A stretch of 33,010 nucleotides of DNA. It comes from Thiogranum sp. GTDB lineage: Bacteria; Pseudomonadota; Gammaproteobacteria; DSM-19610. Below are positions 3,777-32,147 of the stretch, piece by piece. Below the pieces are notes generated by a model. The model was not told the DNA's origin. It worked only from the letters and a program-made list of their open reading frames with translations, and searched no databases. A program made the position numbers and the translations under genes. Within the stretch, counting starts at the first letter, position 1; every line of letters starts with the position of its first letter. The DNA lies in the NCBI GenBank assembly GCA_030148805.1, contig JASBSS010000010.1:1-33010 (forward strand), given 5' to 3'.

Positions 3777-4551
3777 CACTCTTCCTCTCTCGTGCATGCG
3801 ATGGCTTCGCACGACACCCGTTGACAGCATTCACCCGCTACCGACAGCCATTTGCTGGCGGCAGGCGGTTGCTGGTTGTTGTCCGACACCGGTTGGCGAC
3901 AGGTACAAGCAAATATGGTGCCTGGCAGGCGGCAGGCGCCCGGAGGAAAAAGCGCAACCTCTATTGGCGACGCTAAAGGGCTCTTTATAGCGAGATTTTC
4001 ACACCGAGGAGCGCGGTGATTGGACGCCGTCTGTGGGATTTGTGGACGCACGTAGTGAGAGGCTGAGCGACTCAGGTGTGTCGCCACCGCCGCAGATAAG
4101 ACCTTGGATGCGCCGCAATCGATACAATCAGACAATGCGCCGAACCGGCTGCGCCGTCGAGGCGCCGACGCGACCGTCTCGCCCTTCACGGATGCCCGCC
4201 AGCCGCAACATCGCGATTCTCCCCAAGCGTCAGTCAGATGAACCACGTGGCCGAATCGTCCCCCAAGCGCCGGCCCCGCGTCTTACGCGTCTGAGCGAAA
4301 CATTAACAATTAACTTGTTATTTTGGATTCAATGTCTCCGTTAGGGGACACCTTTTGGACTACACAAAACCGGCCGATTCTTACACCAATCCCCCGCCAA
4401 ACTTGAGAAACTTGCCTCCGGAGTCGGGGAAGCGAAGTGGACTCCAGTTCATGCGTCACTGCCCAGGCATTGCGCCGGCACGAGCGATTCATTCCGACGC
4501 CGGGACTTACAACTCACACAATGGCATTCACTTATCATCAAAGAGGTGGAG
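3777..4551. other. Long intergenic region upstream of the glycosidase gene
   Basis: 775 bases separate the divergent osmC-like and glycosidase genes. Most of it shows no coding signal. The right half holds an AT-rich island around 4298-4330 (TTAACAATTAACTTGTTATT), likely the glycosidase promoter zone, and an 18-bp imperfect palindrome at 4333-4350. No RNA gene or riboswitch was recognised. Confidence 0.5.
4333..4350. promoter_or_regulatory. 18-bp imperfect palindrome, candidate operator
   Basis: TGTCTCC-GTTA-GGGGACA forms a 7-4-7 inverted repeat with one mismatch, just after the AT-rich stretch that could carry the promoter of the glycosidase gene 200 bp downstream. No T-run follows, so a protein-binding site is likelier than a terminator. 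The binding protein is unknown. Confidence 0.35.
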
Positions 4552-6672
4552 ATGATCACGCTACACAAGAAATTCACAGCGCGGTTGGCAGCGCTGCAGC
4601 TGGTGCTACTGTCGCAGGCTTCGATCGCCGATTCGGCGAACATGGGGGTCGAGGACAATTACTTTCTCGACAGTGCGGGCGAACCCGTGTTTCTGCTGGG
4701 CTACTACAATTGGGCCTCACCGGTCGATGGTGCCTATATCGACCATCCGACCCGTTTTCAGACCCTGATCGACAATGCGGTGCGCTATGGCCTGAATTAC
4801 GTCCGGGTGAGCCTCGGGGTGAACCGCTTCACGGCCAAGACCACGCCCGCCAGCTGGAACCGTGGCGACATGCCCATCCCCTTTCTCTATGAGAACGACA
4901 AAGCGGATCTCGACCGCTGGGACCCGGAGTTCTGGGACGGACTGCGCGCGGCCCTGAGCGCTGCGCGCGAGAAGGGGGTCTATGTCCATCTGAGCCTGTT
5001 CGACAACGTGAATCTATCCGGCGGCAACGTCAAGCAGAACTACGACGACGCCTATCGTTGGAACAACTCGCCCTGGAACATTCGCAACCAGGTGCGCGAT
5101 TTCTTCGGCGACATCGACCGCGGCGCGTATGGCGCCAATGAGGACGGCGAGTTCTACGACACGCGCAACTTCCTTGACGGCGACGGCGAGAACAGACGCT
5201 CGACGCTGGGTGACTACCAGAAGCGCTATATCGACAAGGTGCTCGCCGAAACCGCCGAATTCGAGAACGTGTTCTACGAAATCGGCAACGAGCTGAAGGC
5301 CAAGACAGCCTGGCAGTCGGCGGTGCTCGATTATGTCAAGACCAGAACCGCCAAGCCGGTGACCCTGAACAACCACGTGACGCGCGACCTGGCCGGACGG
5401 GTGGCCACCCTCCCCGAGGGCCTGGATGGGTTCGCGGTACATAAAGCGGATACCGCCGCGCAGCTCAAGGAAACCGTGGATTACATGAAGACGCGCGGCC
5501 CGCGGGTGCCGGCGTGGGACGACCCGGACGGCCCGGCGCTCGGCGAAGCCGACGCCACTGAAAGCCGTCAGGCGGCCTGGTACGCGTTCACCGGCGGCGC
5601 GGCGATGTGGGCCGGATTCAGTTTCGATTATTTTTCCGACGGCGGCGGTTTCGACCCGACAAAAGCCTCCTACTATCAGAATCTCGGCGGCTTCATCCGG
5701 CATAACGCCTTGGCGCTGGGGGAGATGATGCCGCGCCACGATCTGGTGTCCAACGGCAAGGTGAACTCGCTCCTGGCGGTGCCCGGCCAACAGTATGTCG
5801 CCTACATCCTCAACGACGCCAACGCCTCGGTGGACCTGTCCGCTACCGGCGGCAGCTTCAGCGCGGTGCGCTTCGATCCGGTGAGCGCCGACTACTCCGC
5901 CGCCCAGACGCTTGCCGGTGGCCGTCGTCATGTCTTCGCCAAACCCGCCGGCGCGACCGACTGGGTGATACTGATCCGCCGCCTCGACGCGGCGAGCGAT
6001 CAGGCCCCGCAGGGAACCATCGATACCCCCGCGACCGACATCACCCTTCGCGAGGGCGAGAGTGTCCGCTTCACTGCCAGCGGCAGCGATCCGCGAGACA
6101 CCGCCTTGCGTTACGCCTGGGACTTCGGCGTCGCGGGCGGCAGCGCGCTGGAAGACCCGGACGAGGTGATGTTCGCCAACGCCGGGACCTATACGGTGAC
6201 GCTCAACGTGACCAATGCCGCCGGCGTGTCCGACCCCACCCCCGCGACGCGCACCATCACCGTGCTGCCGGCCGGAAACGACAGCGTGCTGCTGTCGCCC
6301 AACCGACCCATGCGCGCCTCGTCGGTGGAGGACGCCAGCCTGCACGCCGGCAACGCCGCCGACGGCGACCGCTCGACACGCTGGGCCAGCCGCGAAGGCA
6401 GCGACGGGGAATGGATCTGGGTCGACCTGGGCGCGCCGGCGGCGATCGATCGCGTGGTGCTCGACTGGGAGCGTGCCTACGCCCAGGCCTATACGCTGCA
6501 AGTCTCGGACGACGGCGCCAACTGGCGCACGGTGTACCGCGAGAGCGCCGGCGACGGCGATCGCGATGAAGTCCCCGTCGCCGCCACGGGTCGCTACGTT
6601 CGCATGCTTGGCGAGCAGCGCGCTACCCAATGGGGGTATTCGCTGTGGGAGTTCGAGGTCTACGGACGCTAG
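4552..6672 (+). CDS. Secreted clan GH-A-like glycoside hydrolase with PKD and F5/8C (CBM32-like) domains
   Basis: A 706-residue exported enzyme. A signal peptide spans about residues 1-27 (KK, hydrophobic stretch, ASIADSA). The catalytic region (about 30-470) has the cellulase-like (beta/alpha)8 signs: the FLLGYYNW opening, LNYVRVSLGVNRF, VYVHLSLFDN, and VFYEIGNEL, whose Asn246-Glu247 dyad matches the acid/base of clan GH-A. The second catalytic Glu is not certain; the one in PALGEADATE is a candidate. A PKD-type domain (about 484-572, RYAWDFG, AGTYTVTLNV) and a discoidin/F5/8 type C domain (about 577-706, DGDRSTRWAS, WVDLG, SLWEFEVYG) should bind glycans. ATG 4552 is preferred over GTG 4546 because GAGG lies 5 bases upstream of it. 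The substrate is unknown; neighbours suggest an acetylated exopolysaccharide. Confidence 0.8.
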   Translation: MITLHKKFTARLAALQLVLLSQASIADSANMGVEDNYFLDSAGEPVFLLGYYNWASPVDGAYIDHPTRFQTLIDNAVRYGLNYVRVSLGVNRFTAKTTPASWNRGDMPIPFLYENDKADLDRWDPEFWDGLRAALSAAREKGVYVHLSLFDNVNLSGGNVKQNYDDAYRWNNSPWNIRNQVRDFFGDIDRGAYGANEDGEFYDTRNFLDGDGENRRSTLGDYQKRYIDKVLAETAEFENVFYEIGNELKAKTAWQSAVLDYVKTRTAKPVTLNNHVTRDLAGRVATLPEGLDGFAVHKADTAAQLKETVDYMKTRGPRVPAWDDPDGPALGEADATESRQAAWYAFTGGAAMWAGFSFDYFSDGGGFDPTKASYYQNLGGFIRHNALALGEMMPRHDLVSNGKVNSLLAVPGQQYVAYILNDANASVDLSATGGSFSAVRFDPVSADYSAAQTLAGGRRHVFAKPAGATDWVILIRRLDAASDQAPQGTIDTPATDITLREGESVRFTASGSDPRDTALRYAWDFGVAGGSALEDPDEVMFANAGTYTVTLNVTNAAGVSDPTPATRTITVLPAGNDSVLLSPNRPMRASSVEDASLHAGNAADGDRSTRWASREGSDGEWIWVDLGAPAAIDRVVLDWERAYAQAYTLQVSDDGANWRTVYRESAGDGDRDEVPVAATGRYVRMLGEQRATQWGYSLWEFEVYGR

Positions 6673-6706
6673 TCGGCCCACCCCGCCGCGCGCCCCGCGC
6701 CAAGCC

Positions 6707-6740
6707 GTTCCGATCTGCGCCCGCGGGCGCGGATCGGAAC
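6707..6740 (+). terminator. Strong hairpin after the glycosidase gene
   Basis: A 9-bp outer stem GTTCCGATC/GATCGGAAC encloses a GC-only inner palindrome (GCGCCC/GGGCGC), 34 bases after the stop codon. It is followed by CCCCCCTT rather than a T-run, so it is an atypical intrinsic terminator or an mRNA 3'-stabilising element. Confidence 0.5.
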
Positions 6741-6820
6741 CCCCCTTGGACTGCCGCCAGCGTGCAAAATCCCGACCGTTTCACAAACCGGGGATTCCGT
6801 CCGGTCTTCCCGGCCCCGAG

Positions 6821-6836
6821 GTGACGACTCCGTCAC
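6821..6836. promoter_or_regulatory. Perfect GTGACG-CGTCAC inverted repeat, candidate operator
   Basis: GTGACG-ACTC-CGTCAC is a perfect 6-4-6 inverted repeat in the gap before the deacetylase lipoprotein gene, followed by an AT-richer stretch (TTAATTTATTG, about 6870) that could hold a promoter. No T-run, so an operator is more likely than a terminator. Regulator unknown. Confidence 0.35.
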
Positions 6837-7053
6837 ATTCCGGCGATGGCAAACGACGCCCCGCTGCCGTTAATTTATTGTCACCGCGGGCGACGCTTTG
6901 GGTCAGCGCTGTCGCAGATCGCAGACGCGCACGCGCTCCGGAGGTTCCGGACTGACGCTAACCCAAGGAATCGAAACACGGTTTACGAATGGCACGGTAA
7001 TTGCCGATCACTCGCATGACCTTAGCAACCCAATACCGCAGGATGATTTGAAC

Positions 7054-9006
7054 ATGGCAGCCCCCCTACCCACGACGCTGATGCGGGTTATCCGCAGCCT
7101 TCCGATTCTCTGCCTCGGCCTGCTGGCGGCCTGCGGCGGTGGGGGTGGCGACGCGGGCTCGGGGTCGACGCTACCGCAGTCGGCCGAACGGGTAGCCATC
7201 ACCGGCGCCGGCATCAAGGGACCGCTGGCCTTCGCCAACGTGCAGGTCTTCGCCCTGGACCCGGCGCACGACGGGCTGTACGACCCACAGGCCCCGTTGG
7301 CGACGGCGACGACCAACGCCTATGCCCAGATCACGGGGCTGACGGTGCCGGCCACGACCCAGCCGCCCTACGTCCTGGTGGTGGACGGCGGATCGGCGGT
7401 CGACCAGAACACCGGTCAGGCACCGGTGATCAGCAAGCTCTACACGGTGATCACGCGCGCGGCGCTGGATTCGGGCAGACCGGTGTATGCCACCCCCTAT
7501 ACCACGCTGGCCTATGAAATGCTGGCGCGAAAGGTCGCCGCCGACGGTGGCGCCCCGGCGGCGCTCGACGCCCAGCTCGGCGCGTTCAACGACGCCATCG
7601 TCAAGGCCCTGGGTTTCGGCATGCCGGCCGACATCGACGTGTTCAACACGCCGCCGATCATCAACCACCGCACCACCGATGCCGCCCAACAGCAGCAGGT
7701 AGTCGATTATCGCGCCGCGATCGAAACGCTCTCCTCCCTGCTGCATGAAATGTCGCGGACCTCGGCCAACAGCCTCAGCGCGGACGAATTGTTGCAACGT
7801 CTTGCCATCGACTTGAACGACGACGGCATCGTCGACAACCGCGCCCAGGGCGCGGTCATCGGCGGCATCGATACCGAACTGCTGGCGGGTGACCCCTCAC
7901 AACTGCAAATCGCCAACAGCCCCTATCGGGTGAAGGATATTGTCGCGTTGATCGACGATGAGCGCGCCCAGGTCGGCGACGACAGTGGCGTGTATTTCTA
8001 CAAAGACGATATGCAGGTCGCCGTTAGACCCGCCGAGCTCGACGCCGCCGACAATCCGGGAGCACCCACCACGCCAGCGGCACCAGTTACGCCCCCCGCG
8101 AGCGATCCCGCGCCCACGATCACCCCGCCGGAGACCGAGCCGGAGCCGTCGACGCCGCCGCCCGCAAGCGATCCCGTCGTGAACGTGCCGCCGGTGGCCG
8201 CGCCGCCGAATCCGCCGGTGAGCGAGCCGGCGCCGACCCCTGATCCGGCGCCGCAGCCCGACGTCGGCGCGCCGGCGCTGGTGGCGGTGCTCAAGTTCGA
8301 CGACGTCAAGCAGGTCAACGGTTTCATCAAACCCGGCTGGCAGCGCCTGGTGACCTATTTGCAGACGCGCAACATCAAGGCCGGTTTCGGCGTCATTGCC
8401 GAAACCCTGGCCACCGCCACGCCGACCTACCTGGCGTGGATCAAGACGCTGCAGGGCAGCGGTCTGATCGAGTTCTGGTTCCACGGCTGGGACCACCAGA
8501 CCTACACCAAGGACGGCGTGCGCTACAACGAGTTCGTGCGTCCCTACGCCGAACAGGCAAAGCGGCTGGCCGACTCGCAGCGCCTTGCCAGGCAGAAGCT
8601 GGGCTTCGCCTTCACCACCTTCGGGCCGCCGGGCGGCGCCGGCAAGGGCAGCTTCAACGCCGACACCCTGCGGCTGATGGCGGACGACCCCGATATCAAG
8701 ACCATGCTGTATCCGCAGGCGATGAACGCGCTCGGCCGCGAGGCTGAGGACTCGGCCAACGGCGAGTTCAAGATCCTGGACCGCGTCGGTGCCGTGAATC
8801 TCGAGGGCTCGGTCGGCGACCCGGATTTCACCCGCTTCCGCGAGGGCTTCGAGGCTAACCCCCAGCGGCGTTACTTCGTCCTTCAGGGCCACCCGGCCAA
8901 CTGGGACGACGCCCGCTTCGCCGAGTTCGAGCGCATCATCGACTATCTGGTCGCCCGCGACGCGGTCTTCCTCACCCCGCGCGAGGCCGCCGCGATCCTT
9001 CCCTGA
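7054..9006 (+). CDS. Lipoprotein with C-terminal polysaccharide deacetylase-like (CE4/NodB-fold) domain
   Basis: A 650-residue envelope protein. The N-terminus is a lipoprotein signal with lipobox LAAC (Cys27) followed by a glycine run. Residues about 45-325 form an unrecognised region starting ITGAGIKGPLAFANVQVFALD. A Pro/Thr/Ala/Glu linker covers about 330-408. The C-terminal domain (about 409-650) shows a CE4-like motif set: KFDD (Asp416-Asp417), HGWDH (His477, His481), FGPPGG and QGHP (His613). In that family the Asp and two His bind the metal that removes acetyl groups from glycans. The same domain stands nearly alone in the gene at 12174. Start 7054 is chosen for AGGA upstream and because it places a proper signal peptide; the frame is open back to 6898. 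The exact enzymatic role is inferred. Confidence 0.75.
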   Translation: MAAPLPTTLMRVIRSLPILCLGLLAACGGGGGDAGSGSTLPQSAERVAITGAGIKGPLAFANVQVFALDPAHDGLYDPQAPLATATTNAYAQITGLTVPATTQPPYVLVVDGGSAVDQNTGQAPVISKLYTVITRAALDSGRPVYATPYTTLAYEMLARKVAADGGAPAALDAQLGAFNDAIVKALGFGMPADIDVFNTPPIINHRTTDAAQQQQVVDYRAAIETLSSLLHEMSRTSANSLSADELLQRLAIDLNDDGIVDNRAQGAVIGGIDTELLAGDPSQLQIANSPYRVKDIVALIDDERAQVGDDSGVYFYKDDMQVAVRPAELDAADNPGAPTTPAAPVTPPASDPAPTITPPETEPEPSTPPPASDPVVNVPPVAAPPNPPVSEPAPTPDPAPQPDVGAPALVAVLKFDDVKQVNGFIKPGWQRLVTYLQTRNIKAGFGVIAETLATATPTYLAWIKTLQGSGLIEFWFHGWDHQTYTKDGVRYNEFVRPYAEQAKRLADSQRLARQKLGFAFTTFGPPGGAGKGSFNADTLRLMADDPDIKTMLYPQAMNALGREAEDSANGEFKILDRVGAVNLEGSVGDPDFTRFREGFEANPQRRYFVLQGHPANWDDARFAEFERIIDYLVARDAVFLTPREAAAILP

Positions 9007-9407
9007 AGCCACGCGCCGCGGTGGAACACCGCGGTCGGCGCCGTTGTATGTCACCAGGCCCGGCGGTCCCTGTCCGGGTTTGGCATGCCTTGGGTCCGAC
9101 CTGGAATTTTCCGTTCATGCTTGACCTGCCTGGACAGAGCCTGGCGGTCCCAGGCTGAGTGCGACGGTCCTGAGATCGACCTGGCGCCCTTGGCTGGGCC
9201 CTGTGGGAATTTTCGCCCGCGCTTGAGCTGTCGTGGCAGCACTTGTCCGCCGTCAGTCGAGTGCGACAGCCAACAGCGCAGCCTGACGCCTTTGACTGGG
9301 CGCGGTCGGTTGCCCGGCCGGATCTGACGTCGGCCGGTCACCTGGCATCACCCGGCCGGACCAGGCTTTAGCCGATCGGAGCTGGCGTTCGTGGGGCGCC
9401 CCCGCGT
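9007..9407. other. Intergenic spacer with degenerate ~102-bp repeat
   Basis: Space between the convergent deacetylase lipoprotein and acyltransferase genes. Its centre is two degenerate copies of a ~102-103 bp unit. Frames of 80 (+) and 96 (-) residues are open across it, but neither has a ribosome site or recognisable domain, so I do not call a gene. Confidence 0.5.
9085..9290. repeat. Degenerate direct repeat, two copies, period 102-103 bp
   Basis: Shared blocks recur at constant spacing: GGAATTTTC at 9103 and 9206, GCTTGA-CTG at 9119 and 9221, and GAGTGCGAC at 9157 and 9259. A partial third copy may begin near 9287 (CCTTTGACTGGG). On the minus strand the duplicated peptide keeps RK(F/I)P and SHS patterns with a 34-residue period. 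Confidence 0.65.
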
Positions 9408-11372
9408 TCAGGAACCGAGGTCGGCGGACTGCAACGCTGGCGCCTGCCGTACGGGGAAGAACAGCGCCTTCAAATAGCTGTGGGGATAATTGGCGAGCAG
9501 TGTTCGGGCAATCCACTCGCCGCCATAGACCGACAGATGATGGGTATCGAGATAGTTCGGCCTGCCGTGTTCGTCGCTGGCGCGGACCCGCTTACCGATC
9601 TCCTTCAGCAGTGCCTCCACATCGATAAAACGGAGCTGCTCGGTCGAGGCGTAATCTCGCAGCAGGACGTTGGCTTCCAGGTAGGAATCGTCGATTTCCA
9701 TGGTCAGCGGCGCGTCGCTTGAGTCGGTCAGCCGGTGATAGTTGAACACCTTGTCCGCGCTGGCCAGGTAGCCGTGAATGCGCCCCAACACCGCCACCGG
9801 TTTGTCCGCGGCGCGCAATTTGGCGAAGAAGTCGTCCATGGCCGCCACGCCGACGCGGTTCTCGCGGAAATAGCGCGGGGTCCACTTCTGGGCATAGAGT
9901 ATCCCGTCGTAATCGGACAGATGGCCGAAGACATACGCCCGCACGCGCTCGCATTTCTCGGTTTTCACATGCGGATAGCAGGCACCGGCCGAGGCCAGAT
10001 CCACCTGCACCCCGAGCGCGGTGCCCAGCGCGCTGACCATCTGGTAGTAGTGTTCGGCGTGCGAATTGCCGACCAGCAGGTAACGCTCGCTGGGGTGCGG
10101 CACGTCGGCGGCGTTGCCCTGACAGCCCAGGCTGACGAACGAGGGGCACTTGCTTTTGTCGATGTGGTAGAAAGCCAGTCGCGGATCGAGCTGGTCGCTG
10201 AGAAAGCGTTGCGGCATGCCCTTGGTATACAGCACCCAGGCGCCCAGTCCGGACAACAGCACGCCGGGCAGCAGAAACACGTAGACAAAGGAATGAGCGA
10301 AGGAGTTTTTCATCCGCCGCACCGGCTTTTCCACCCAATGGTAGGAAAGCGTCGACATGAGCAGCGTAAAGGCGACCACGGCGGCCACGCCCAACGGGGA
10401 AAAGGCGAAATCCGTGGGACCCCCGAAATCGAGTACGTATTTCGACAGGGCGATGGTCGGCCAATGCCACAAATAGATGGAATAGGACAGCAGGCCGATC
10501 GCCACCAGCGCCTTGACCGACAACAGCTTGTGCGCCGCGCTGCCCCGCGAGGGCGCGATCACCAGTGCCGCCAGGGTACAGGGCAGCAGCGCGCTGAAGC
10601 CCGGGAACAGCATTTCGCGATTGAACAGGACCAGACACAGCAGCAAGCCCACCATCGCCAGGTTGGAAATCATGGGATGGACACGCAAGTCCTTGTACTC
10701 GATGACCGCCACCGCCAGGGCCGCGCCGATCATCAACTCGTTGGCGCGCGTCACGAACAGATAATAGGACCATTTGGCGGCGTCCGGCCGCATGGCCATG
10801 AAGGTTCCCAGGGCGGCGGACACGGCGATCAATGCCGCGAACACCACCAGCAGCGTGACGGCGTGCGACTTTTCGAACTTGGAGCGCAGGTAGAACAGCA
10901 GCACCAGGACCAGCGGCCAGAAAATGTAGAACTGCTCCTCGACGCTCAGCGACCAGGTATGCAGCAAGGGCCACTGCTCGGCGTTGTTGGAAAAGTAATC
11001 GCCACTGCGGGCGGCGTAGTTGAAGTTGGAGATGAAAAAGATGCTGGAGATGACCGAGATGCCGAACTTGTAAAAATCATAGGGCAGCACGAGCAGATAC
11101 GCCGCCACCATGGTGACGCTCAACACCAGGAAATACGCCGGCAGGATGCGGTTGATGCGCCGGCGATAGAAATTGCCGTAGCTGAAGGTGGAACTCAGGC
11201 GTTCCCGGTAGAGGATGGTGGTGATCAGATAGCCGGAAATGGTGAAGAAAATATCCACCCCGAGAAAACCGCCGGGCATCCAGTTCTTGTTGAGATGGAA
11301 AACGAAGACGGCGAGCACCGAGACCGCGCGCAACCCGTCAATGGCGGGGTTGTACTTGAGCAGTGTGTTCAT
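9408..11372 (-). CDS. Acyltransferase-3 / SGNH fusion (OafA/OatA-type O-acetyltransferase)
   Basis: A 654-residue inner-membrane enzyme expected to move acetyl groups across the membrane and transfer them to a surface or periplasmic polysaccharide. The N-terminal acyltransferase-3 domain (about 1-385) has the family marks IDGLRAVSVL, the catalytic-type His26 in FVFHLN, GVDIFFTISGYLI, WSLSVEEQFYIFWP, and about ten membrane segments ending with LWHWP and HWVEKPVRR. The C-terminal extracytoplasmic SGNH domain (about 425-654) has GNSHA (Ser437) and DTHHLS (Asp609, His612), a complete Ser/Asp/His set. GGAGAGGGCG upstream supports the ATG at 11372. It lies between the two deacetylase-like genes on the opposite strand, so acetylation and deacetylation of one polymer is a sensible inference. 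The acceptor is unknown. Confidence 0.92.
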   Translation of the reverse strand: MNTLLKYNPAIDGLRAVSVLAVFVFHLNKNWMPGGFLGVDIFFTISGYLITTILYRERLSSTFSYGNFYRRRINRILPAYFLVLSVTMVAAYLLVLPYDFYKFGISVISSIFFISNFNYAARSGDYFSNNAEQWPLLHTWSLSVEEQFYIFWPLVLVLLFYLRSKFEKSHAVTLLVVFAALIAVSAALGTFMAMRPDAAKWSYYLFVTRANELMIGAALAVAVIEYKDLRVHPMISNLAMVGLLLCLVLFNREMLFPGFSALLPCTLAALVIAPSRGSAAHKLLSVKALVAIGLLSYSIYLWHWPTIALSKYVLDFGGPTDFAFSPLGVAAVVAFTLLMSTLSYHWVEKPVRRMKNSFAHSFVYVFLLPGVLLSGLGAWVLYTKGMPQRFLSDQLDPRLAFYHIDKSKCPSFVSLGCQGNAADVPHPSERYLLVGNSHAEHYYQMVSALGTALGVQVDLASAGACYPHVKTEKCERVRAYVFGHLSDYDGILYAQKWTPRYFRENRVGVAAMDDFFAKLRAADKPVAVLGRIHGYLASADKVFNYHRLTDSSDAPLTMEIDDSYLEANVLLRDYASTEQLRFIDVEALLKEIGKRVRASDEHGRPNYLDTHHLSVYGGEWIARTLLANYPHSYLKALFFPVRQAPALQSADLGS

Positions 11373-11647
11373 CGGTCGCCCTCTCCATGGACATTATTGG
11401 AATGAATTGAGACTTTTATTGAACTTCCCATCAGCCTCCAGTATCGGCGGCGGGCGGAAATTCTTCAAGCGCGCGGGGCCCCGGGGCCGGGGAGCCCCCG
11501 AGCACGCCGGGCCCTGAGCCGGGCCGTCGGCGACATCGCCCGCCGACCGGGCCGGATGACGGCCCTGCCCTTCCCGCCGGCCCCGGCTTGCCGGCTTCCG
11601 ACGATCGGATTATCGTACCGGCTCAGCGAGATATAAGGAGAATCGCC
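11373..11647. other. Divergent intergenic region with very GC-rich palindromic core
   Basis: Separates the acyltransferase and DUF302 genes. An AT-rich patch near 11390-11430 likely serves the acyltransferase promoter. Bases 11470-11535 are almost pure G/C with overlapping palindromes (GGGGCCCCGGGGCC, GCCGGGCCCTGAGCCGGGC) that could fold strongly. Confidence 0.45.
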
Positions 11648-12100
11648 ATGCCCCTGCACCGAATGCTGCTTGCCGTATGCCTGACGATGCTCGCCGGCAC
11701 CGTGTTCGCCGCCGACGGATTGATCCGGCTGAAAAGTCCCGACAGTGTCGCGGCGACCATGGAACGTCTGGAGAGAGCGGTCAAGCAACGCGAGCTGCAC
11801 ATTTTCGCCCGCATCGACCACAGCGCCGGCGCCGAGCGCGTCGACCTGAGCCTGCGCCCCACGCAACTGCTGATTTTCGGCAATCCCAAGGGCGGCACGC
11901 CGCTCATGCAGTGCGCCCAGACCACGGGCATCGACCTGCCGCTCAAGGCCCTGGTGTGGCAGGATGAGGCCGGGCAGGTCTGGGTCGGCTACAACGACCC
12001 GGCCTATCTCGCCCGCCGGCACAAGGCGAGCAACTGTCCCGTGGTGTTGAAGCTGCAACAGGTCCTGTCCGACATCGGCAAAGCGGCGGTCTCGCCTTGA
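11648..12100 (+). CDS. Periplasmic DUF302-domain protein
   Basis: A 150-residue exported protein. The signal peptide (about 1-20, MLLAVCLTMLAGTVFAA) ends just before a DUF302 domain: SVAATMERLERAVKQRELHIFARIDH, LRPTQLLIFGNPKGGTPLM, IDLPLKALVWQDEAGQVWVGYNDPAYLARRH. That consensus is very recognisable, but the molecular role of DUF302 proteins is not settled. The start at 11648 has AAGGAG six bases upstream; the in-frame start at 11588 is rejected because it would bury the signal peptide. The deacetylase-like gene follows 73 bp downstream on the same strand, so the two may be co-transcribed. Two cysteines remain after export (QCAQTT, SNCPVV), which could form a disulfide. Confidence 0.9.
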   Translation: MPLHRMLLAVCLTMLAGTVFAADGLIRLKSPDSVAATMERLERAVKQRELHIFARIDHSAGAERVDLSLRPTQLLIFGNPKGGTPLMQCAQTTGIDLPLKALVWQDEAGQVWVGYNDPAYLARRHKASNCPVVLKLQQVLSDIGKAAVSP

Positions 12101-12173
12101 GCACCGCGCACGGCTTGGCGTGCTGAGCCGCGCATACGCGTGAGAAGGACCGCGGTGGCAGCGTGAAATCCCC

Positions 12174-13115
12174 ATGAGTTCTCATTCAAGGTCGCTCGTG
12201 CGTCTCATCGGCGCGGTGCTGACAGCGCTGGCGACGCTGTTGCCCGCCAGCATCCATGCCGCAGGGACAAGCGCCGGGGCGCAGGTCCAGGCCGCCCTGG
12301 AACGCAACGCGGGTGCGCCCCGCGACTCGCAGCGGCCACCGCTCCTGGTGATCCTGAAATTCGACGACCTGCGGGAAGTCGACGGCCTCATGCCGCCGGG
12401 CTGGCGGCGGCTGATGGATTATCTCAAGGAGGCCGGCATCAAGGCCGCCATCGGCATCGTCGCCGACTCGTTGGCCAACCCCACGCCGGACTATCTGCAA
12501 TGGATCCAGTCCCAATACGCCCAGGGGCTGGTCGAATTCTGGTTGCACGGCTGGGATCATCTCAGCTACACCCGCGACGGCGTGCGCTATAACGAATTCG
12601 TGCGACCCTATCAGGCGCAGGCCGAGCGCCTGGCCCGGTCGCAACGGCTGGCGCGGCAAAAGCTCGGCTTCAGCTTCACCACTTTCGGTCCGCCCGGGGG
12701 GCCCGGCAAAGGCAGTTTCAACGCCGACACGCTGCGGTTGTTGGCGGCGGACCCCGATCTGCGGGTGATGCTCTACCCCACGCGCCTGGATGAAGCCGGT
12801 CGCGCCGCGATGGCGATGAGTTCAGGCAAGCTGACCATATTCGATCGCAGCCAGGGCGTGGATCTGGAAAGTCCCATCGGGGTGCCCAATTTCGACCAGA
12901 TTCGCCGCGGCATCGACCGCCACGCGCAACGGGACTATTTCGTGCTGCAGGGCCATCCCGCCCGTTGGGACGCGGCCCGTTTCAACGAGTTCGAACGCAT
13001 CGTCCGTTATCTCATCGCCCGCGGCGCCGTCTTCACCACGCCGGCGGAACTGGCCGCGCAACGGCGGCCCAGTGCGCCGCGGGCGGCCCTCAACCACCCG
13101 CCAGCGCCTGATTGA
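12174..13115 (+). CDS. Exported polysaccharide deacetylase-like protein (paralogue of the 7054 gene)
   Basis: A 313-residue exported protein. After a signal peptide (about 1-30, ending IHAAG), nearly the whole chain is the CE4-like domain also found at the C-terminus of the lipoprotein at 7054. Motifs: KFDD (Asp64-Asp65), HGWDH (Lys/Arg-rich region after it; His125, His129), FGPPGG (171-176) and QGHP (His261). The block from DGVRYNEFVRPY through KGSFNADTLRLL is almost identical in the two proteins, so they arose by duplication. There is no strong ribosome site before ATG 12174. Its last 26 bases overlap the end of the opposing SGNH hydrolase gene. Proposed role: metal-dependent removal of acetyl groups from a glycan; the substrate is unknown. 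Confidence 0.78.
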   Translation: MSSHSRSLVRLIGAVLTALATLLPASIHAAGTSAGAQVQAALERNAGAPRDSQRPPLLVILKFDDLREVDGLMPPGWRRLMDYLKEAGIKAAIGIVADSLANPTPDYLQWIQSQYAQGLVEFWLHGWDHLSYTRDGVRYNEFVRPYQAQAERLARSQRLARQKLGFSFTTFGPPGGPGKGSFNADTLRLLAADPDLRVMLYPTRLDEAGRAAMAMSSGKLTIFDRSQGVDLESPIGVPNFDQIRRGIDRHAQRDYFVLQGHPARWDAARFNEFERIVRYLIARGAVFTTPAELAAQRRPSAPRAALNHPPAPD

Positions 13116-13980
13116 GCCGGCGATAACCCGCCGCGTTCAGGTGCAGGAAATCGGCCGCGTAGGCGGCGTCCAGAAAGCCGTCGGGGCGCGCCAGCAAGGC
13201 AGCGGCGTCCACCACCCGCACCCCCGGGGCGACAAGGGTTTCCAGGAAGCCGTTGATCTGCGCCAGCGCCGCGCTGGCGGCGGGATTCCACATCCGCCGG
13301 CGCAACAGCGAGGGCTGGGCCGGGGGAAACACCGTCGTCAGCACCAACTGGATCCCGTCGGCCTGGGTTTTTTCGACCAGGGCCTGGATATTGTCCTGGT
13401 AACGCGCCACCACGGCCGCGGCCGGCGCCGCCGACAAGCCGACCAGCTTGATATCGTTGATCCCCACCTGCACCAGCAAGTGGCGCGGGCGCAACGGCTG
13501 CACGTGCGCCTCGTAGCGGCCCAGCACCTGGGTCGAGGTTTGTCCCCCGATCCCGGCGTTGACGAACTCCGAGTCCTGCCAGCCCGACGGCACCGGCCAT
13601 TGCCGGGCCCGCGAATCGCCGAAGACCATCCACTGCGGCCGTTGCGTCCGCGCGCTGCCGGGATCGATTTTGTCGAGCTCGAACGGATCCTGGCGCAGCA
13701 GAGCGATGCGGGTGTACAAGGTCTCGCTCAGGCGCCACAAATAGGCGTTGCCCGCCAGGGACAGCAGTAACAGCGCCATGAGCGCGGTCAGCGTCCACGC
13801 GCGTTTCCTGTGCTGGTGTGAAAGTGTCAAACCGGTCTTCGATAATCCGTTGGTCGCTCGCAGCGGACCTGATCGAGTCGTCGGTTGGCGGTAGAGAGCC
13901 AGCTCACCCCGCCTGGGATCCGGTACCTGCGAAGCGTTGACTGTAGCATAGGCGGGCAGATTCGTCTTCCGGCGAACCAT
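13090..13980 (-). CDS. Membrane-anchored SGNH/GDSL-family hydrolase
   Basis: A 296-residue (or shorter) protein. A transmembrane anchor spans about 62-82, then an SGNH hydrolase domain follows with all four blocks: FGDSRA (Ser123), NAGIGGQ (Gly), GIND (Asn175) and DFLHLNAAGY (Asp277, His280). SGNH enzymes are esterases, often carbohydrate O-acetylesterases. The start is uncertain: GGAGGT lies directly against the ATG at 13980, too close for normal use, and the first ~55 residues look non-homologous, so a downstream non-ATG start is possible. The gene converges on the deacetylase-like gene with a 26-base 3' overlap, and a 9-bp tandem repeat begins 13 bases upstream of its annotated start. It fits the neighbourhood's acetyl-ester theme. 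Confidence 0.8.
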   Translation of the reverse strand: MVRRKTNLPAYATVNASQVPDPRRGELALYRQPTTRSGPLRATNGLSKTGLTLSHQHRKRAWTLTALMALLLLSLAGNAYLWRLSETLYTRIALLRQDPFELDKIDPGSARTQRPQWMVFGDSRARQWPVPSGWQDSEFVNAGIGGQTSTQVLGRYEAHVQPLRPRHLLVQVGINDIKLVGLSAAPAAAVVARYQDNIQALVEKTQADGIQLVLTTVFPPAQPSLLRRRMWNPAASAALAQINGFLETLVAPGVRVVDAAALLARPDGFLDAAYAADFLHLNAAGYRRLNQALAGG

Positions 13981-14334
13981 ACCTCCACCGATGGCCCAAC
14001 TGGCCCAACTGGCCCAACTGGCTCGACTGGCTCGACTGGCTCGACTGGCTCAATTGGCTCAATTGGCTCAATTGGCTGCGTTGACTGCGTTGACTGCGTT
14101 GACTGCGTTGGCTGCGTTGGCGTATTGGCTTAATGGGGTCATGGGACATGGCGGAGGCAAAACATATGGCGCGGCCGGAATTACAGCGCACCTAGACCTT
14201 CACGATTCTTAGATATCACTTTATAAATAACAAGTAAGATACTGATAAATATTTTAATAATATAATTCAAGCCATAAAAAAACGCGCAAGATCCGGCTTG
14301 TGGCAACCGCCTCGCCGACCTATCGTTGCACCCT
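13981..14334. other. Divergent spacer: 9-bp repeat array plus AT-rich promoter region
   Basis: Left half: a 14-unit 9-bp tandem repeat. Right half: bases 14208-14285 are very AT-rich (TATAAATAACAAG, AAATATTTTAATAATATAATT), in sharp contrast to the surrounding GC, and probably hold the promoter of the Ada-like gene. No gene is called; frames through the repeat encode only Leu-Ala-Gln/Arg-type periodic peptides. Confidence 0.6.
13994..14119. repeat. 9-bp tandem repeat, 14 units in homogenised blocks
   Basis: Fourteen consecutive 9-mers in order: GCCCAACTG x3, GCTCGACTG x3, GCTCAATTG x3, GCTGCGTTG x1, ACTGCGTTG x3, GCTGCGTTG x1; degenerate units continue to about 14136. The block structure indicates successive local duplications after base changes. 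The array is immediately upstream of the SGNH hydrolase start. Confidence 0.95.
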
Positions 14335-15192
14335 ATGTCAGATTATATGCGCATCACCCGGGCGATCGAGTTCATCACTGCGAACGCGTCGAACCAGCCG
14401 ACGCTGGAGGCGATCGCGGCGCACCTGCACCTCAGCCCGTTTCATTTCCAACGGCTGTTCTGTCGCTGGACCGGGGTGACGCCCAAGCGTTATCTGCAGA
14501 CGCTGACCGTGGAGAGAGCCAAGCGGCTGTTGGCGCAGGCGCGCCCGCTGCTGCAAGTGTCCGAGTCGGTGGGGCTGAGCAGCAGCTCCCGCCTGCACGA
14601 TCACTTCGTGCAGCTCGAGGCGGTCACCCCGGGTGAGTACAAGCAGCGTGGCACGAATCTGCACATCGAACACGGGGTTTGCGCTTCGCCTTTCGGTGGT
14701 CTGTTCGTCGCCATCACCTCCCGGGGCATCTGCAAACTGAGTTTCGTCGATGACGCCGCCGAAACCCCGGAACTGGTGACTGAGTTGCGCCGCTGCTGGC
14801 CGCGGGCGACGCTGCGGGCCAACCCGGCCGCGGCGCAAGCGGTGGCCGCGGCCTTGTTCTCCCGCCGCCCCCGTCCCGACCGGCCGCTGTCGCTGTATGT
14901 CAAGGGCACGAATTTCCAGGTCAGCGTCTGGCGGGCCCTGCTGCGCATCCCGCCGGCGGCGGTGGTCAGTTACACCGAGGTCGCCGAGGCGGTCGCCAGA
15001 CCGCGCGCGGCGCGTGCGGTGGGCAGCGCCATCGGCGCCAACCCGGCGGCCTTCCTGATCCCCTGCCACCGCGTGATCCAGCAATCCGGCCGCCTGGGCG
15101 GATACCACTGGGGGGAAACGCGGCTGCAAGCGATACATGCCTGGGAATGCGCGCGGGCCGAGACGCGGGGAGGACAGGAGATCCCGGACTGA
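14335..15192 (+). CDS. Ada-like fusion: AraC-type regulator plus O6-alkylguanine-DNA methyltransferase
   Basis: A 285-residue protein. Residues about 1-100 are an AraC-type double helix-turn-helix (LEAIAAHLHLSPFHFQRLFCRWTGVTPKRYL is its first part). Residues about 110-285 are a DNA methyltransferase with the active-site motif PCHRV (Cys244), preceded by FQVSVWRALLRIPPAAVVSY. It should accept a methyl group from O6-methylguanine irreversibly and regulate alkylation-response genes. The N-terminal zinc and methylphosphotriester domain of E. coli Ada (with its Cys38) is absent, so methyl-triggered activation would have to work differently. ATG 14335 is chosen; a TTG three codons upstream is also open and no ribosome site is obvious. 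An AT-rich promoter-like stretch lies just upstream. Confidence 0.93.
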   Translation: MSDYMRITRAIEFITANASNQPTLEAIAAHLHLSPFHFQRLFCRWTGVTPKRYLQTLTVERAKRLLAQARPLLQVSESVGLSSSSRLHDHFVQLEAVTPGEYKQRGTNLHIEHGVCASPFGGLFVAITSRGICKLSFVDDAAETPELVTELRRCWPRATLRANPAAAQAVAAALFSRRPRPDRPLSLYVKGTNFQVSVWRALLRIPPAAVVSYTEVAEAVARPRAARAVGSAIGANPAAFLIPCHRVIQQSGRLGGYHWGETRLQAIHAWECARAETRGGQEIPD

Positions 15193-16966: not shown

Positions 16967-17032
16967 CCGTCGGTACCGTAGTTCACGCATCACCGCCGCA
17001 GCGGCGTGCCTGAGGCGACTGATACGCCGGCG

Positions 17033-17136
17033 CCGATGTGCCGATGTGCCGATGTGCCGATGTGCCGATGTGCCGATGTGCCGATGTGCCGATGTGCCGA
17101 TGTGCCGATGTGCCGATGTGCCGATGTGCCGATGTG
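17033..17136. repeat. 8-bp tandem repeat (CCGATGTG), 13 perfect units
   Basis: Thirteen exact head-to-tail copies of CCGATGTG without a single substitution, between the convergent ends of the 75-residue gene and the nucleotidase-like gene. Because 8 is not a multiple of 3, any frame through it encodes an eight-residue repeat (M-C-R-C-A-D-V-P on the plus strand). Purity suggests recent or ongoing slippage expansion. Confidence 0.97.
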
Positions 17137-17147
17137 CTTGTGCGTGA

Positions 17148-17174
17148 GCCGGTCGGGCATATCGCCCGACCGGC
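17148..17174 (-). terminator. 11-bp perfect hairpin after the nucleotidase-like gene
   Basis: GCCGGTCGGGC-ATATC-GCCCGACCGGC is a perfect 11-bp stem with a 5-base loop, 25 bp beyond the stop of the minus-strand gene. No T-run on either side. It is probably a 3' end structure or terminator shared by the convergent genes. Confidence 0.55.
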
Positions 17175-17198
17175 CTCGCGGTTGGTCGATCCGCGCGC

Positions 17199-19802
17199 CT
17201 ACAGCGGGCAGTCGGGTACCGGCGTCGGCATGATGCGGGCGTCGTACTCCGGCGTTCCCGGCAAGCCCCAGGTGCTGTCGGGGGTGGACTTGCTGAAGTA
17301 ACTCGCCACGGTGCCGCACAACGGCTGCATCACCGCCAGCCCCCCATAGCTTTCACGCCCCGGCAGCGGTTTTTGCAGGCGGATGCGATGCGCCGCCGGA
17401 TTGGCCGGTCCGCGACCGCGGGCGATGTCGTACTGGATGTCCTGCGCGCTCGCCGCGGGTTCCGCCCCCGGCTCCTGCAGGTATTTCTCCAGAATCTGCG
17501 TCAGGTCGATCTCCACGCCCTTGACCACCGGGTGTCCGTCCACCCAGACGGTGTGCCCTTCGCTGTCGGTTTCCAGCGCCGGCCGGCCGCTGGCCTCGAG
17601 CCAGGCGCGGCCGGTCGCCGGGTTCATGTTCACCGGCAACAGGTAAGGCGCCTGCGGCGACAGGTCGGTGCCCGGCACCACGTCGGCGTAACCGCGCGGA
17701 TTGCAGTTGGGGCAGTTGTTGAGGGTGAACGGCGCGCGGCCGTAGAAATACCCGGCCACGTCCATCACCGGCATGTGGTTGACCCGGGTGTGGCTGGCCG
17801 GCGCGGCCTGATGCGACCAGGCGCCGGTGGTCTCGTCGATGACCAGATCGCGATACGCCGCCTGCGAACCGGCCGGCGCGCTGGCCGCCCAGGCCGGGGT
17901 CCAGTCGCCCGGGCGCCTGCCGGCGGCGACCGCCTCTTCCGAGGTGGCCGCGTCGTTGATCTGGATCTGCCTGCTGTAGGACCACTCACCGCTTACCGGA
18001 TCCTGGGTGCAGGCCTGGGACGAATCCAACTCGGTCGGCGGCAACCGGTCGCAGCTCAACGTCACCGTGATCCCGCGCGCGCGCGAGTCGCCCGGATACA
18101 CCCCCGGGGTCGGGCCGCGACGCACCCAGTAGGGATCGAAGCTCAACGTCGGGCCGCTATAGGCGAACATCCAGCCGCCCGCCCAGCCTTCGTTGTTGTA
18201 CGGGTTGGACTTGACGTTGGTGTCCATCGGGCTGGTGCTGAACACCGCCAGCGACGAGTTGTCCACCTGGTTGCGTAACTGGTTGGCGTGGATCTTCCCG
18301 GCCTTGCCGACGCGCGCCCCGATGGGCACGAAATGGTACAGATCGTTGCGCGTGATCGGCCCCGGCTGGACGTGGGTGCCATAACGGAAACCGCGCACCG
18401 TGGCCAGGTCCGAGCCCGCCCACCAACGGATGGCATCGGCGATCCAGTCGTGCGAGGTGCCCTCGATGGCCGCGGGCATGGCATCGGGGTCGCTGCTGAA
18501 CAGCGCCTCGTCGGTAAAGCCGCTGCGGTGCAGCGCCTTTTGCGTACTGCCCACCACCTCATCGAGCGAGCCGTTCAGATAGGTGTTGGCGAAGGGGTTG
18601 CGGTGGAACCCCTCGCGCAGCGCGGGGTCGGCGGCGTAGCGGGCGAACTCGGTGGTATAGGGCGCGCGTACCTGCGCGACCTTCCGGGCGATGGTCTTGT
18701 CCGCCTTGATGCCGTCGTGGATGCGGTGCGGTTTGAACTCCCACCCGCTCACCTTGCCGTCGCGCAACTCGAACCGGATCTCGCCGATCATGGTGCCGTC
18801 CTGACCCTCTTCCAGCAGCAGCGTGGTGGCCGTGCGGCTCTTGTTCGGCACGCGGATCGGGTGCACCGTCTCCTCGTGCATGTCCGAGTTGAGAATCAGA
18901 TCGATGTGGTTATCGCCGTCGAGCGCATCGAAGGTGCTGACCATCTCGATGTTGGCACCGACCTCGATCTCGGTGATCAGCACCACCAGATCGACCCGCT
19001 GGGCCCGCACCTCGGCGACAAAACGCGGCACTTCCTGCGCGCAGTCGGTGAACTCGATGCCTTCGACCACCCAGCGGCCGACCACCTGCGGTCCGCGGCG
19101 GGTGGTGCAACCGACAATGCCCACCTTGACGTCACCGACGGTCTTGATCGCGTACGGGGGCAGCACCCGCTCGCCGTTGTCGGCGTACCAGGCGTGCCAG
19201 TCGTTGTACTCCTGCGCGGTATGGACCCGCGGCAGCGTGGCCGGAATGCCGGCGGGAAACGCCGGGCTGGTCACCACCACCCCGTCGGCGTCGACGATCC
19301 GCCCGGCGCTGTCGCTGGGCGCGGTGTTGTAGAGATTGGCCGCCAGGGCGCCCCAGCGGTTGCCGACGCCCTGCTTGCCGCTGCCGGCAGCGAAAAATTC
19401 CTTGAAGCGATCCGGTCCGTAGACATATTCCCAGTTGCCGGGCGCGAACGCGTCGATGCCGAACAGATCGACCACATCGACCAGCGCCTGGCCGCGCGAA
19501 TACAGCGCCTCGCCGGACCCCTGGATGGTGTCGCCGGTGTTGATCAGCAACGAATTGCCCGCGCTTTTGCGGATGGACTGGATCTTGGTGTACATCCGCG
19601 CCAGTCCGCCTTCCAGACGTCCATCGCCGTCACTGCGCAGGTTCGGTCGGGCGATGGTGTGGCCGTGCAGGTCACCCATGTGGATCAGGGTGATCTCCTT
19701 TTCCCTGCCCGGCTTGGACCCGGATTTGTCCTTGCCCTCGGCGATGGTCGTCGTGACCGCCAGCACCAGGGCGGTAGCCGTTATCAGTGCATGCGTTTTC
19801 AT
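17199..19802 (-). CDS. Large exported SoxB/5'-nucleotidase-family metallophosphoesterase
   Basis: An 867-residue exported protein. After a signal peptide (about 1-22) comes a metallophosphoesterase domain with HMGDLHGH (Asp44, His46), NTGDTIQGSG (Asp91), PGNWEYVYG (Asn123; Trp instead of the His usual in 5'-nucleotidases, as in SoxB) and LNSDMHEE. The C-terminal 5'-nucleotidase domain is recognisable by HDWIADAIRWW, FRYGTHVQPGPITRNDLY and a HANQLRNQV element. SoxB is a di-manganese sulfate thiohydrolase of about 560 residues; this protein is about 300 longer, with an unrecognised Cys-containing region (about 590-800, including NCPNCNP). GAGGG upstream and the signal peptide support ATG 19802 over the in-frame ATG at 19952. 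No other sox gene is nearby, so nucleotidase, thiosulfate-related or other hydrolase activity cannot be decided. Confidence 0.8.
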   Translation of the reverse strand: MKTHALITATALVLAVTTTIAEGKDKSGSKPGREKEITLIHMGDLHGHTIARPNLRSDGDGRLEGGLARMYTKIQSIRKSAGNSLLINTGDTIQGSGEALYSRGQALVDVVDLFGIDAFAPGNWEYVYGPDRFKEFFAAGSGKQGVGNRWGALAANLYNTAPSDSAGRIVDADGVVVTSPAFPAGIPATLPRVHTAQEYNDWHAWYADNGERVLPPYAIKTVGDVKVGIVGCTTRRGPQVVGRWVVEGIEFTDCAQEVPRFVAEVRAQRVDLVVLITEIEVGANIEMVSTFDALDGDNHIDLILNSDMHEETVHPIRVPNKSRTATTLLLEEGQDGTMIGEIRFELRDGKVSGWEFKPHRIHDGIKADKTIARKVAQVRAPYTTEFARYAADPALREGFHRNPFANTYLNGSLDEVVGSTQKALHRSGFTDEALFSSDPDAMPAAIEGTSHDWIADAIRWWAGSDLATVRGFRYGTHVQPGPITRNDLYHFVPIGARVGKAGKIHANQLRNQVDNSSLAVFSTSPMDTNVKSNPYNNEGWAGGWMFAYSGPTLSFDPYWVRRGPTPGVYPGDSRARGITVTLSCDRLPPTELDSSQACTQDPVSGEWSYSRQIQINDAATSEEAVAAGRRPGDWTPAWAASAPAGSQAAYRDLVIDETTGAWSHQAAPASHTRVNHMPVMDVAGYFYGRAPFTLNNCPNCNPRGYADVVPGTDLSPQAPYLLPVNMNPATGRAWLEASGRPALETDSEGHTVWVDGHPVVKGVEIDLTQILEKYLQEPGAEPAASAQDIQYDIARGRGPANPAAHRIRLQKPLPGRESYGGLAVMQPLCGTVASYFSKSTPDSTWGLPGTPEYDARIMPTPVPDCPL

Positions 19803-20242
19803 TATGTATCCCTCATCTTCCTTAGGGCGCCGTGATTGGCGCTGAGAATAGATGGCAGGCCGGAAAACGCTATTCCATAGCATTATTCGATGGTGCGTGA
19901 GCGACAATCGACGTTGTTGCATGGAGGCCGATTTGTCTTCCCCCGGCGACACCCGGCCCCCGTTTCCCGGGTCGGTCGCGGGTTACACAAGGACATGGTC
20001 GCCCGGGTTACGCAAGGGCTTGGCGGCCCGGGTTACGCAAGGGCTTGGCGGCCCGGCTTGCTCAAGGACATGGCGGCCCGGGTCACCCGACCCCAGTCCT
20101 CCCGGCGCGCCGCCCCGCGGCTGGGATCCGGCGCGCTGGCAAAAAAATTGGAAGAAAACCTCCACTCTCGGCATCTACCTGTCGATAAGTCATTAGTGGC
20201 AACTAGCGCTGTAGTATTTTTGCCAATAGATGGGGGGGACCG
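19803..20242. other. Divergent spacer with 25-bp repeat
   Basis: The gap holds the upstream region of the nucleotidase-like gene, a 4-copy 25-bp repeat, and an AT-richer stretch (about 20185-20230, CTGTAGTATTTTTGCC) likely to be the promoter of the leader ORF and membrane-protein gene. No additional gene is supported. Confidence 0.5.
19983..20082. repeat. 25-bp tandem repeat, 4 units
   Basis: Four head-to-tail 25-bp units start at 19983, 20008, 20033 and 20058. Each begins TTA/TTG, has CAAGG in the middle and ends GCCCGG(G/C). The inner two units are the same except for the last base; the outer two share AAGGACATGG where the inner have AAGGGCTTGG. Confidence 0.93.
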
Positions 20243-31848: not shown

Positions 31849-31880
31849 GTAGCTCGCCGCCTCACGCTTCTCCTGCGGCG

Positions 31881-32147
31881 TCAGAGCTTTTTTTCGATCA
31901 GATCCTTCATGGCCCGGTTCTCCAACGCCAGGTCGGCATACATCCGCTTCAGTTTGGCGTTCTCCGCCTCCAGCTCCTTGGTGCGCTTGAGATCCGAGAC
32001 ACTCATCCCGCCGTATTTGGCCTTCCAGTTGTAGTAGGTTGCATCGGATATCCCGTGCTTGCGGCAGACCTCCTTGACCTTCATGCCGGCCTCGGCCTCT
32101 CCCAAGATCGCGACAATCTGACTTTCCGTGAATCGTGACTTTTTCAT
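31881..32147 (-). CDS. IS3-family transposase OrfA (helix-turn-helix)
   Basis: An 88-residue DNA-binding protein. The helix-turn-helix spans FTESQIVAILGEAEAGMKVKE and CRKHGISDATYYNWKAKYGG, and a leucine-zipper-like segment follows (LEAENAKLKRMYADLALENRAMKDL). The gene ends at the A7G slippery run where ribosomes can shift -1 into orfB. GAGGCTCAG upstream of ATG 32147 gives a modest ribosome site. It resembles IS407-group OrfA proteins. Confidence 0.95.
   Translation of the reverse strand: MKKSRFTESQIVAILGEAEAGMKVKEVCRKHGISDATYYNWKAKYGGMSVSDLKRTKELEAENAKLKRMYADLALENRAMKDLIEKKL
31887..31894 (-). promoter_or_regulatory. A7G slippery site for -1 frameshifting
   Basis: On the minus strand the sequence reads AAAAAAAG just before the orfA stop, within the codons for the EKKL ending. 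A -1 shift joins orfA to orfB in the IS3-family manner. Confidence 0.8.

Follow-up and report, generated by a model that had tools for sequence, protein, structure and literature searches.

A locus of glycan-modifying genes in Thiogranum as a possible satellite of an exopolysaccharide cluster elsewhere in the genome

We analysed a stretch of 33,010 nucleotides from Thiogranum sp. (assembly GCA_030148805.1, contig JASBSS010000010.1, positions 1 to 33,010), hereafter the window, which belongs to a genome of 3.78 Mb in 38 contigs (G000). An original prediction, made from the letters alone, had picked out in it a candidate locus for glycan acetylation, deacetylation and cleavage. The six open frames placed there are present, and frames and Pfam agree on the families that had been named: a glycosidase (GH), two proteins with deacetylase-like domains (CEa and CEb), an AT3-SGNH fusion, a DUF302 protein and an SGNH hydrolase (Table 1). 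The strands alternate along the six genes (GH-CEa plus, AT3-SGNH minus, DUF302-CEb plus, SGNH minus), which rules out a single operon, and scans of the sequence for promoters (3 found against 1.9, s.d. 1.2, in shuffles) and terminators (5 against 9.1) gave no signal. For comparison we used 17 genomes of the genus, 20 of the family, 56 relatives and 369 genomes of the class. Measured against the same-genus species G014, the ratio of nonsynonymous to synonymous substitution (dN/dS) is 0.11 for GH (dS near 1), 0.12 for AT3-SGNH, 0.16 for DUF302, 0.23 for the SGNH hydrolase, 0.19 for CEa (0.09 in its deacetylase part) and 0.38 for CEb, next to 0.14 and 0.19 for the flanking Ada-like and histidine kinase genes. 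Since these ratios run from 0.09 to 0.38, the six genes are real and constrained; by this measure selection keeps all of them, CEb being held most loosely. As to the proposal that all six products are exported or membrane proteins, there is a lipobox (LAAC) in CEa, an N-terminal hydrophobic stretch in both CEb and DUF302, and nine hydrophobic segments in the AT3-SGNH protein against one in the SGNH hydrolase. The leader of GH is signal-like by eye and lies below every hydropathy threshold.

Table 1. Features of the locus, with positions in the window
Feature	Position	Strand	Basis
GH-A-clan, GH140-like secreted glycosidase (GH)	4552..6672 (alternative start 4546)	+	PKD_4, F5_F8_type_C = C-terminal CBM32; profile match to apiosidase 8t9w
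CEa lipoprotein: unnamed N-terminal module, Pro-rich linker, C-terminal CE4-like deacetylase	7054..9006	+	Pfam, lipobox, motifs
N-terminal module of CEa, common to exopolysaccharide-cluster lyase-type lipoproteins	7138..8040	+	alignment
AT3-SGNH fusion, O-acetyltransferase type	9408..11372	-	Acyl_transf_3, SGNH; RAVSVLAVFVFH, GNSH, DTHHL
DUF302 protein, probable bystander	11648..12100	+	Pfam E 2e-23
CEb, secreted CE4-like deacetylase, paralogue of CEa C-terminal domain	12174..13115	+	Pfam, motifs, model
Membrane-anchored SGNH/GDSL hydrolase, possible internal start 13779	13090..13980	-	Lipase_GDSL_2 E 8e-19, GDSR, DFLHL

Both deacetylase-like domains pass the curated cut-off of Pfam Polysacc_deac_1 (23.1 bits), with 30.0 bits for CEa and 30.6 for CEb, and the two are 56% identical in alignment. 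The motifs KFDD, HGWDH and LQGH stand at residues 414-417, 477-481 and 610-613 of CEa and at 62-65, 125-129 and 258-261 of CEb. CE4 enzymes carry an Asp-His-His metal triad in motifs 1 and 2, a His in motif 5 and an Arg in motif 3 (RxPxG). In an alignment of 11 sequences from Thiogranum, a Methylacidiphilaceae metagenome-assembled genome (MAG), Opitutae and a planctomycete, D64, D65, H125, H129 and H261 (CEb numbering) are invariant in every row; judged by these motifs, the metal triad and the motif 5 His are intact in both domains. CEb, the one domain modelled, gave a CE4 fold (predicted local distance difference test, pLDDT, 81.8), with acetyl xylan esterase 2c71 as best Foldseek match (E 4e-8) and a Z of 20.0 (3.0 A over 221 residues) against the probable polysaccharide deacetylase 1z7a; a sequence search of the PDB with the deacetylase domain returned no significant match. 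The metal site of the HGWDH domain, on which the original prediction leaned, is borne out as a predicted site, with the invariant D-D pair and H-x3-H set in that fold. In the deacetylase tree, the CEa and CEb proteins of both species form two separate clades (100/99 and 96/97), and because each clade holds both species the duplication predates their split; a Methylacidiphilaceae protein on a long branch stands next to them. A search of a plasmid collection with CEb (tblastn) found no match and a pattern scan of viral contigs found no relative of the deacetylases or of GH, and on these grounds a plasmid or phage origin was rejected.

GH carries PKD_4 (E 4e-13) and F5/8C (E 1e-23) domains, the latter a CBM32 whose best PDB match is the glucanase/chitosanase 4zy9 (E 4e-36), which we take to be the Paenibacillus IK-5 protein. 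The CBM32 of the IK-5 chitosanase is reported to bind chitin, chitosan and cellulose (PMC12154041). The catalytic part of GH scores 15 bits against Pfam Apiosidase, under the curated cut-off of 26.5, and a profile of seven rows (this domain and six relatives) matches the solved apiosidase 8t9w (E 2e-11, positions 243-428 of 436). These matches support a GH-A-like glycosidase, as had been proposed, in the sense of a clan relative that is not placed in the GH140/apiosidase family itself. E222 of the NE motif is invariant in 7/7 rows, and E307, the candidate second acid, is not aligned to Glu in the paralogues.

With such domains the locus could be degradative, its enzymes deacetylating and cutting a polysaccharide of foreign origin (from algae or plants, or chitosan-like) that serves as food or for attachment, given that degraders typically carry GH140-like domains and CBM32 domains of the chitosanase type. 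Outside the genus, moreover, relatives of the deacetylases in Opitutae and a planctomycete MAG lie beside genes for fucosidase, AXE1 and heparinase II/III (L012) or sulfatase (L009), with a LacI regulator as neighbour in a further case (L008), and these surroundings suit the breakdown of foreign glycans. We nevertheless consider degradation unlikely: a Pfam scan of 16 window proteins found neither SusC/D nor a TonB receptor, and no sugar transporter or monosaccharide pathway; it is hard to see what an O-acetyltransferase would do in a locus of that kind; and CEa is tied by a common module to lipoproteins of an exopolysaccharide (EPS) cluster, as set out below. Thiogranum is presumably a chemolithoautotroph.

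The AT3-SGNH protein matches Acyl_transf_3 (E 6e-27) and SGNH (E 1e-21), both above cut-off, and its Ser, Asp and His blocks are present. Two AT3-SGNH proteins were found per genome in G000 and G014, the second of each being a confirmed fusion. The sole other GH140-like gene found lies about 370 bp from this second AT3-SGNH gene in G000 and about 2.2 kb from it in G014, where the copy aligns only from residue 181 of the window GH and may be incomplete. GH140-like and AT3-SGNH genes are thus neighbours at both loci, every GH140-like gene in the two species lying within about 3 kb of an AT3-SGNH gene. The DUF302 gene had been counted as part of the locus, a place it loses: it has DNA matches in at least 10 of the 17 genus genomes, which makes it probably a bystander, and among the 15 that have no match to the deacetylase domain at least 8 have it.

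Gene order is kept in G014 from GH through CEa, AT3-SGNH, DUF302, CEb, the SGNH hydrolase, the Ada-like gene, the histidine kinase and the 5'-nucleotidase on to a pirin gene, with protein identities of 68-92% (59% for OmpA). The nearest named relative of the locus is on contig JASBST010000046.1 of Thiogranum sp. BWSM_146 (L007). On the left the match ends just upstream of GH, where only window positions 4270-4468 align, and a short-chain dehydrogenase (Pfam) and a lipoprotein-like frame take the place of DsbD and OsmC. No empty site was found in a relative, the flanking genes matching on different contigs. The only other genome of the genus with these genes keeps the neighbourhood, and the distribution is narrow: the deacetylase domain occurs in 2/56 relatives, both within the genus (2/17), and a profile search recovered it in 1/369 class genomes; GH has matches in 5/17 genus genomes (two full length, three through the PKD part only) and its catalytic part in 4/369 class genomes; the SGNH gene is in 2/17. 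The Ada-like gene has DNA matches in at least 8/17. GH, the deacetylase and the SGNH gene are held by the same two genus genomes, which is weak evidence of a unit because the two may be sister species. These genes could also form no functional unit, being glycan genes that are neighbours by chance and stand together in two species through recent common descent. Gene order alone proves little here, because the synteny continues well beyond the right end of the locus, as far as the pirin gene; the genes lie on both strands, and DUF302 is independent. Against this, the conserved block begins a short way upstream of GH, each of the two genomes has another locus where a GH140-like and an AT3-SGNH gene stand together, and both deacetylase paralogues have been retained, so that we regard chance neighbourhood as improbable.

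The original prediction had described a locus without polymerase genes. None was matched in the window (tblastn, 13 EPS-cluster proteins as queries, cut-off E 1e-6), and polymerase, export and sulfation genes are present on another contig of the same genome. There, a Wzy-type EPS cluster spans C37:52000-82958 (L053, L054) and C14:1-7100 (L055), two contigs that may be neighbours because their ends match parts of CBM32. The C37 cluster holds an SLBB protein (cut by the stretch end), a Wzz/GNVR chain-length protein, a Wzy_C protein, a P-loop NTPase (below cut-off), UDP-glucose dehydrogenase, glycosyltransferases, a NodB deacetylase, two PL14-type lipoproteins and three sulfotransferase-like genes, one of them below cut-off; the cluster is present in G014 as well. 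The PKD-CBM32 stretch of GH has counterparts at 43-47% in proteins encoded on the EPS contigs (C37 and C14, and C83 and C61 in G014), its carriers on C37 and at the start of C14 being a GSDH fusion and a GDSL hydrolase; it occurs in no other of the 17 genus genomes, three of which match through the PKD part only. The most economical guess for the polymer is a sulfated, uronate-bearing chain with partly deacetylated amino sugars, because the evidence combines UDP-glucose dehydrogenase, sulfotransferase-like genes, PL14 domains and a chitosanase-type CBM32. Among the products of the EPS contigs are a GSDH-CBM32 protein of 1735 residues with a weak cytochrome match, a giant cadherin/FG-GAP protein and a pair of giant GDSL hydrolases whose repeats are of the CBM32 or fn3 type.

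The link between this cluster and the window is the N-terminal part of CEa. Its first 300 residues have no Pfam match at E 1, and they align at 45 and 57% with the two PL14 proteins of the C37 cluster, each of which consists of the module, a PA14 insert and a PL14 domain and has a lipobox (for one, in frame upstream of the called start). The module is present in 15/369 class genomes and in 4/20 family genomes, the latter being exactly the four that have the Wzy of the EPS cluster; Wzy identity is 89-100% in the two genomes that also have the deacetylase and GH and 49-51% in the other two. A survey covered 20 stretches from 12 of the 15 module-bearing class genomes, with G173, G079 and one further G055 match left outside it, and CEa, the pair on C37 and the G012 gene bring the total to 25 module genes, a cut-off L103 fragment and the G014 orthologues being set aside. 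Of 27 module proteins, 23 show a lipobox-like motif in their called form, and a further one gains it when its frame is extended.

Sixteen of the 25 module genes adjoin glycosyltransferase or other EPS-type genes. They stand near UDP-glucose dehydrogenase (L092, L093, L099, L105 and both L102 genes), near SLBB-Wzz-Wzy (L106), near a glycosyltransferase (L091, L098, L100, L110, and L095 with a branching enzyme as well), inside the EPS cluster (the two C37 genes) or in weaker contexts of this type (L094, asparagine synthase-like; L096, DegT aminotransferase). In seven cases from six genomes the module gene directly adjoins or closely follows a UDP-glucose dehydrogenase-glycosyltransferase pair, five times on the same strand and twice convergent (G000, G014); a frame that looks sulfotransferase-like by eye lies between in L102, and a glycosyltransferase fragment with other frames in L105. 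The neighbours were scanned unevenly, some being hand-picked. The other nine genes (the window, L097, L101, L103 on a 4.8 kb contig, L104, L107, L108, L109 and L123) have no EPS sign and no match to the 13 EPS proteins, and hand-picked neighbours (six from L097, L101, L104 and L107, one from L109) included none of these EPS-type families.

What varies among these proteins is the other end. In a Pfam scan of 20 of them (L093, L104, L107, L108, L109 and a second cut-off L103 fragment being left out), 13 end in a PL14, beta-helix, chondroitinase-B or CE4 domain: eight PL14 (L098 under the curated cut-off), three right-handed beta-helix, one chondroitinase B with two CBM32 stretches, and CEa as the one CE4; another has GH20 domain 2. 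L103, L105 and L106 show PA14 only and run off contig ends, and L097, L110 and L123 have no glycan-active domain. In the module tree (27 rows, 125 columns; 6 of 24 inner branches well supported, 9 open), CEa is closest by path, after its G014 orthologue, to the PL14b protein of the same genome, and L097, L104, L107, L108 and L109 form a separate group. We tentatively suggest that the module may mark a family of envelope lipoproteins not described before, which the EPS clusters of Gammaproteobacteria would use as an interchangeable anchor for domains that edit polymers (PL14, beta-helix/chondroitinase-B-like and here CE4-like). In the window the module would then sit apart from its cluster, fused to a deacetylase of verrucomicrobial kind whose duplication gave one anchored and one free form. 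Beside module genes, L103:2503-4440 and L100:12539-14104 encode PL14 fused to Golvesin_C, without the module, possibly another anchor for EPS lyases.

Taken together, we think the locus is probably a satellite for the exopolysaccharide that the cell itself makes with genes elsewhere in the genome, serving to acetylate, deacetylate and trim that polymer; what we infer in this scheme is the substrate, the sequence of the steps and all enzyme activities. The polymer would be made by the Wzy-type cluster on another contig, and the AT3-SGNH protein would move acyl groups across the membrane and O-acetylate the exported chain, from which the GDSL hydrolase may take them off again. CEa, held at the envelope by its lipoprotein module, and the soluble CEb would deacetylate the chain as CE4-type metal enzymes, and the CBM32-bearing glycosidase would bind the deacetylated amino-sugar stretches and trim them. 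This reading is supported by the module that CEa has in common with the two PL14-type EPS-cluster lipoproteins, by the identical distribution of Wzy and module in the family, by the EPS-type neighbours of most module genes and by the recurrence of the PKD-CBM32 stretch on the EPS contigs. It is also supported by the pairing of GH140-like and AT3-SGNH genes at two loci in both species, by the intact CE4 triad and fold together with the low dN/dS, and by the retention of both deacetylase copies since before the species split. The remodelling of a surface or extracellular polysaccharide, as originally proposed, thus gains support from the module and the CBM32 found in the EPS cluster.

Several observations weigh against the satellite reading, besides the glycan-degradation neighbours of the nearest deacetylase relatives outside the genus. 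Motif 3 of the deacetylases reads FG[PAS]P in 11/11 rows, and because the usual Arg is absent in all of them CEa and CEb form an atypical CE4 branch and are not typical members. The top fold matches of CEb include, beside glycan deacetylases, the allantoinase PuuE (3cl6; Z 20.0, 2.9 A over 220 residues). The model of the GH domain, built from two rows, has a pLDDT of 39.6 and is unusable, and in the stretches examined from the three further class genomes that carry a distant relative of GH there was no AT3 match. The 33 kb of the window has no match to the EPS-cluster proteins, the co-distribution of Wzy and module comes down to two same-genus species, perhaps sisters, plus two others, and the G012 module protein has TSP3 repeats only, on an 11 kb contig without an EPS-protein match. 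A different target is also conceivable, with the AT3-SGNH and CE4 proteins modifying lipopolysaccharide O-antigen or peptidoglycan and GH an adjacent gene that does something else. These substrates are frequent targets of those AT3-SGNH fusions and CE4 enzymes whose function is known, and the fold list of CEb holds peptidoglycan deacetylases and ArnD; the chitosanase-type CBM32, the module with its EPS link and the co-distribution with EPS genes favour another target, and we give this alternative little probability.

If the satellite reading is true, it would explain how acetylation, deacetylation and trimming genes far from a synthesis cluster can belong to that cluster, and the unannotated module predicts from sequence which lyases, hydrolases and deacetylases target a cell's own EPS and not food. 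It would also aid in reading EPS structure from genomes and point to enzymes that cut sulfated polymers.

Elsewhere in the window, positions 14326-15192 encode an AraC-type regulator fused to the DNA-binding domain of an O6-methylguanine methyltransferase (Ada-like), and 17199-19952 a large 5'-nucleotidase/metallophosphoesterase, whose 92% identity in G014 is the highest among the window proteins compared. Near the end of the nucleotidase gene, a minus-strand frame at 16990-17319 consists of HIGTSAHR repeats, a short tandem array, and at 31045-32147 two frames resemble what we take to be an IS3-type integrase with its small upstream frame.

The enzyme families of the locus are all known, and what appears new is their arrangement, above all the common module with exchangeable ends. 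The combination had not been recognised as a named system, and a literature search that lacked most subscription journals found no paper on it or on the module. Like polysaccharide utilisation loci, it has adjacent glycosidase, deacetylase and CBM genes; unlike them, it carries an O-acetyltransferase and shows no uptake or sugar-catabolic genes among the 16 proteins scanned. In the Pel and poly-N-acetylglucosamine (PNAG) systems, a single exported polymer is the target of both a CE4-type deacetylase and a glycosidase (PelA; PgaB, which has both in one outer-membrane lipoprotein). The locus likewise pairs a CE4-type deacetylase with a glycosidase, and the CEb model resembles PelA (9cgy; Z 16.7, 3.0 A over 206 residues, 9% identity). 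It differs in that the two are separate genes, an AT3-SGNH acetyltransferase is added, the tblastn search of the window found no synthesis gene and the glycosidase is GH140-like, presumably not of the Pel or PNAG glycosidase families. In alginate and other AT3/AlgX-type systems, a membrane acetyltransferase and lyases act on one polymer, and the SGNH hydrolase gene has a weak, sub-threshold AlgX match (14.4 bits, cut-off 26.5). In the Thiogranum genome, by contrast, AT3-SGNH is a single fusion, and the lyase-type genes are PL14 lipoproteins of an EPS cluster with sulfotransferase-like genes.

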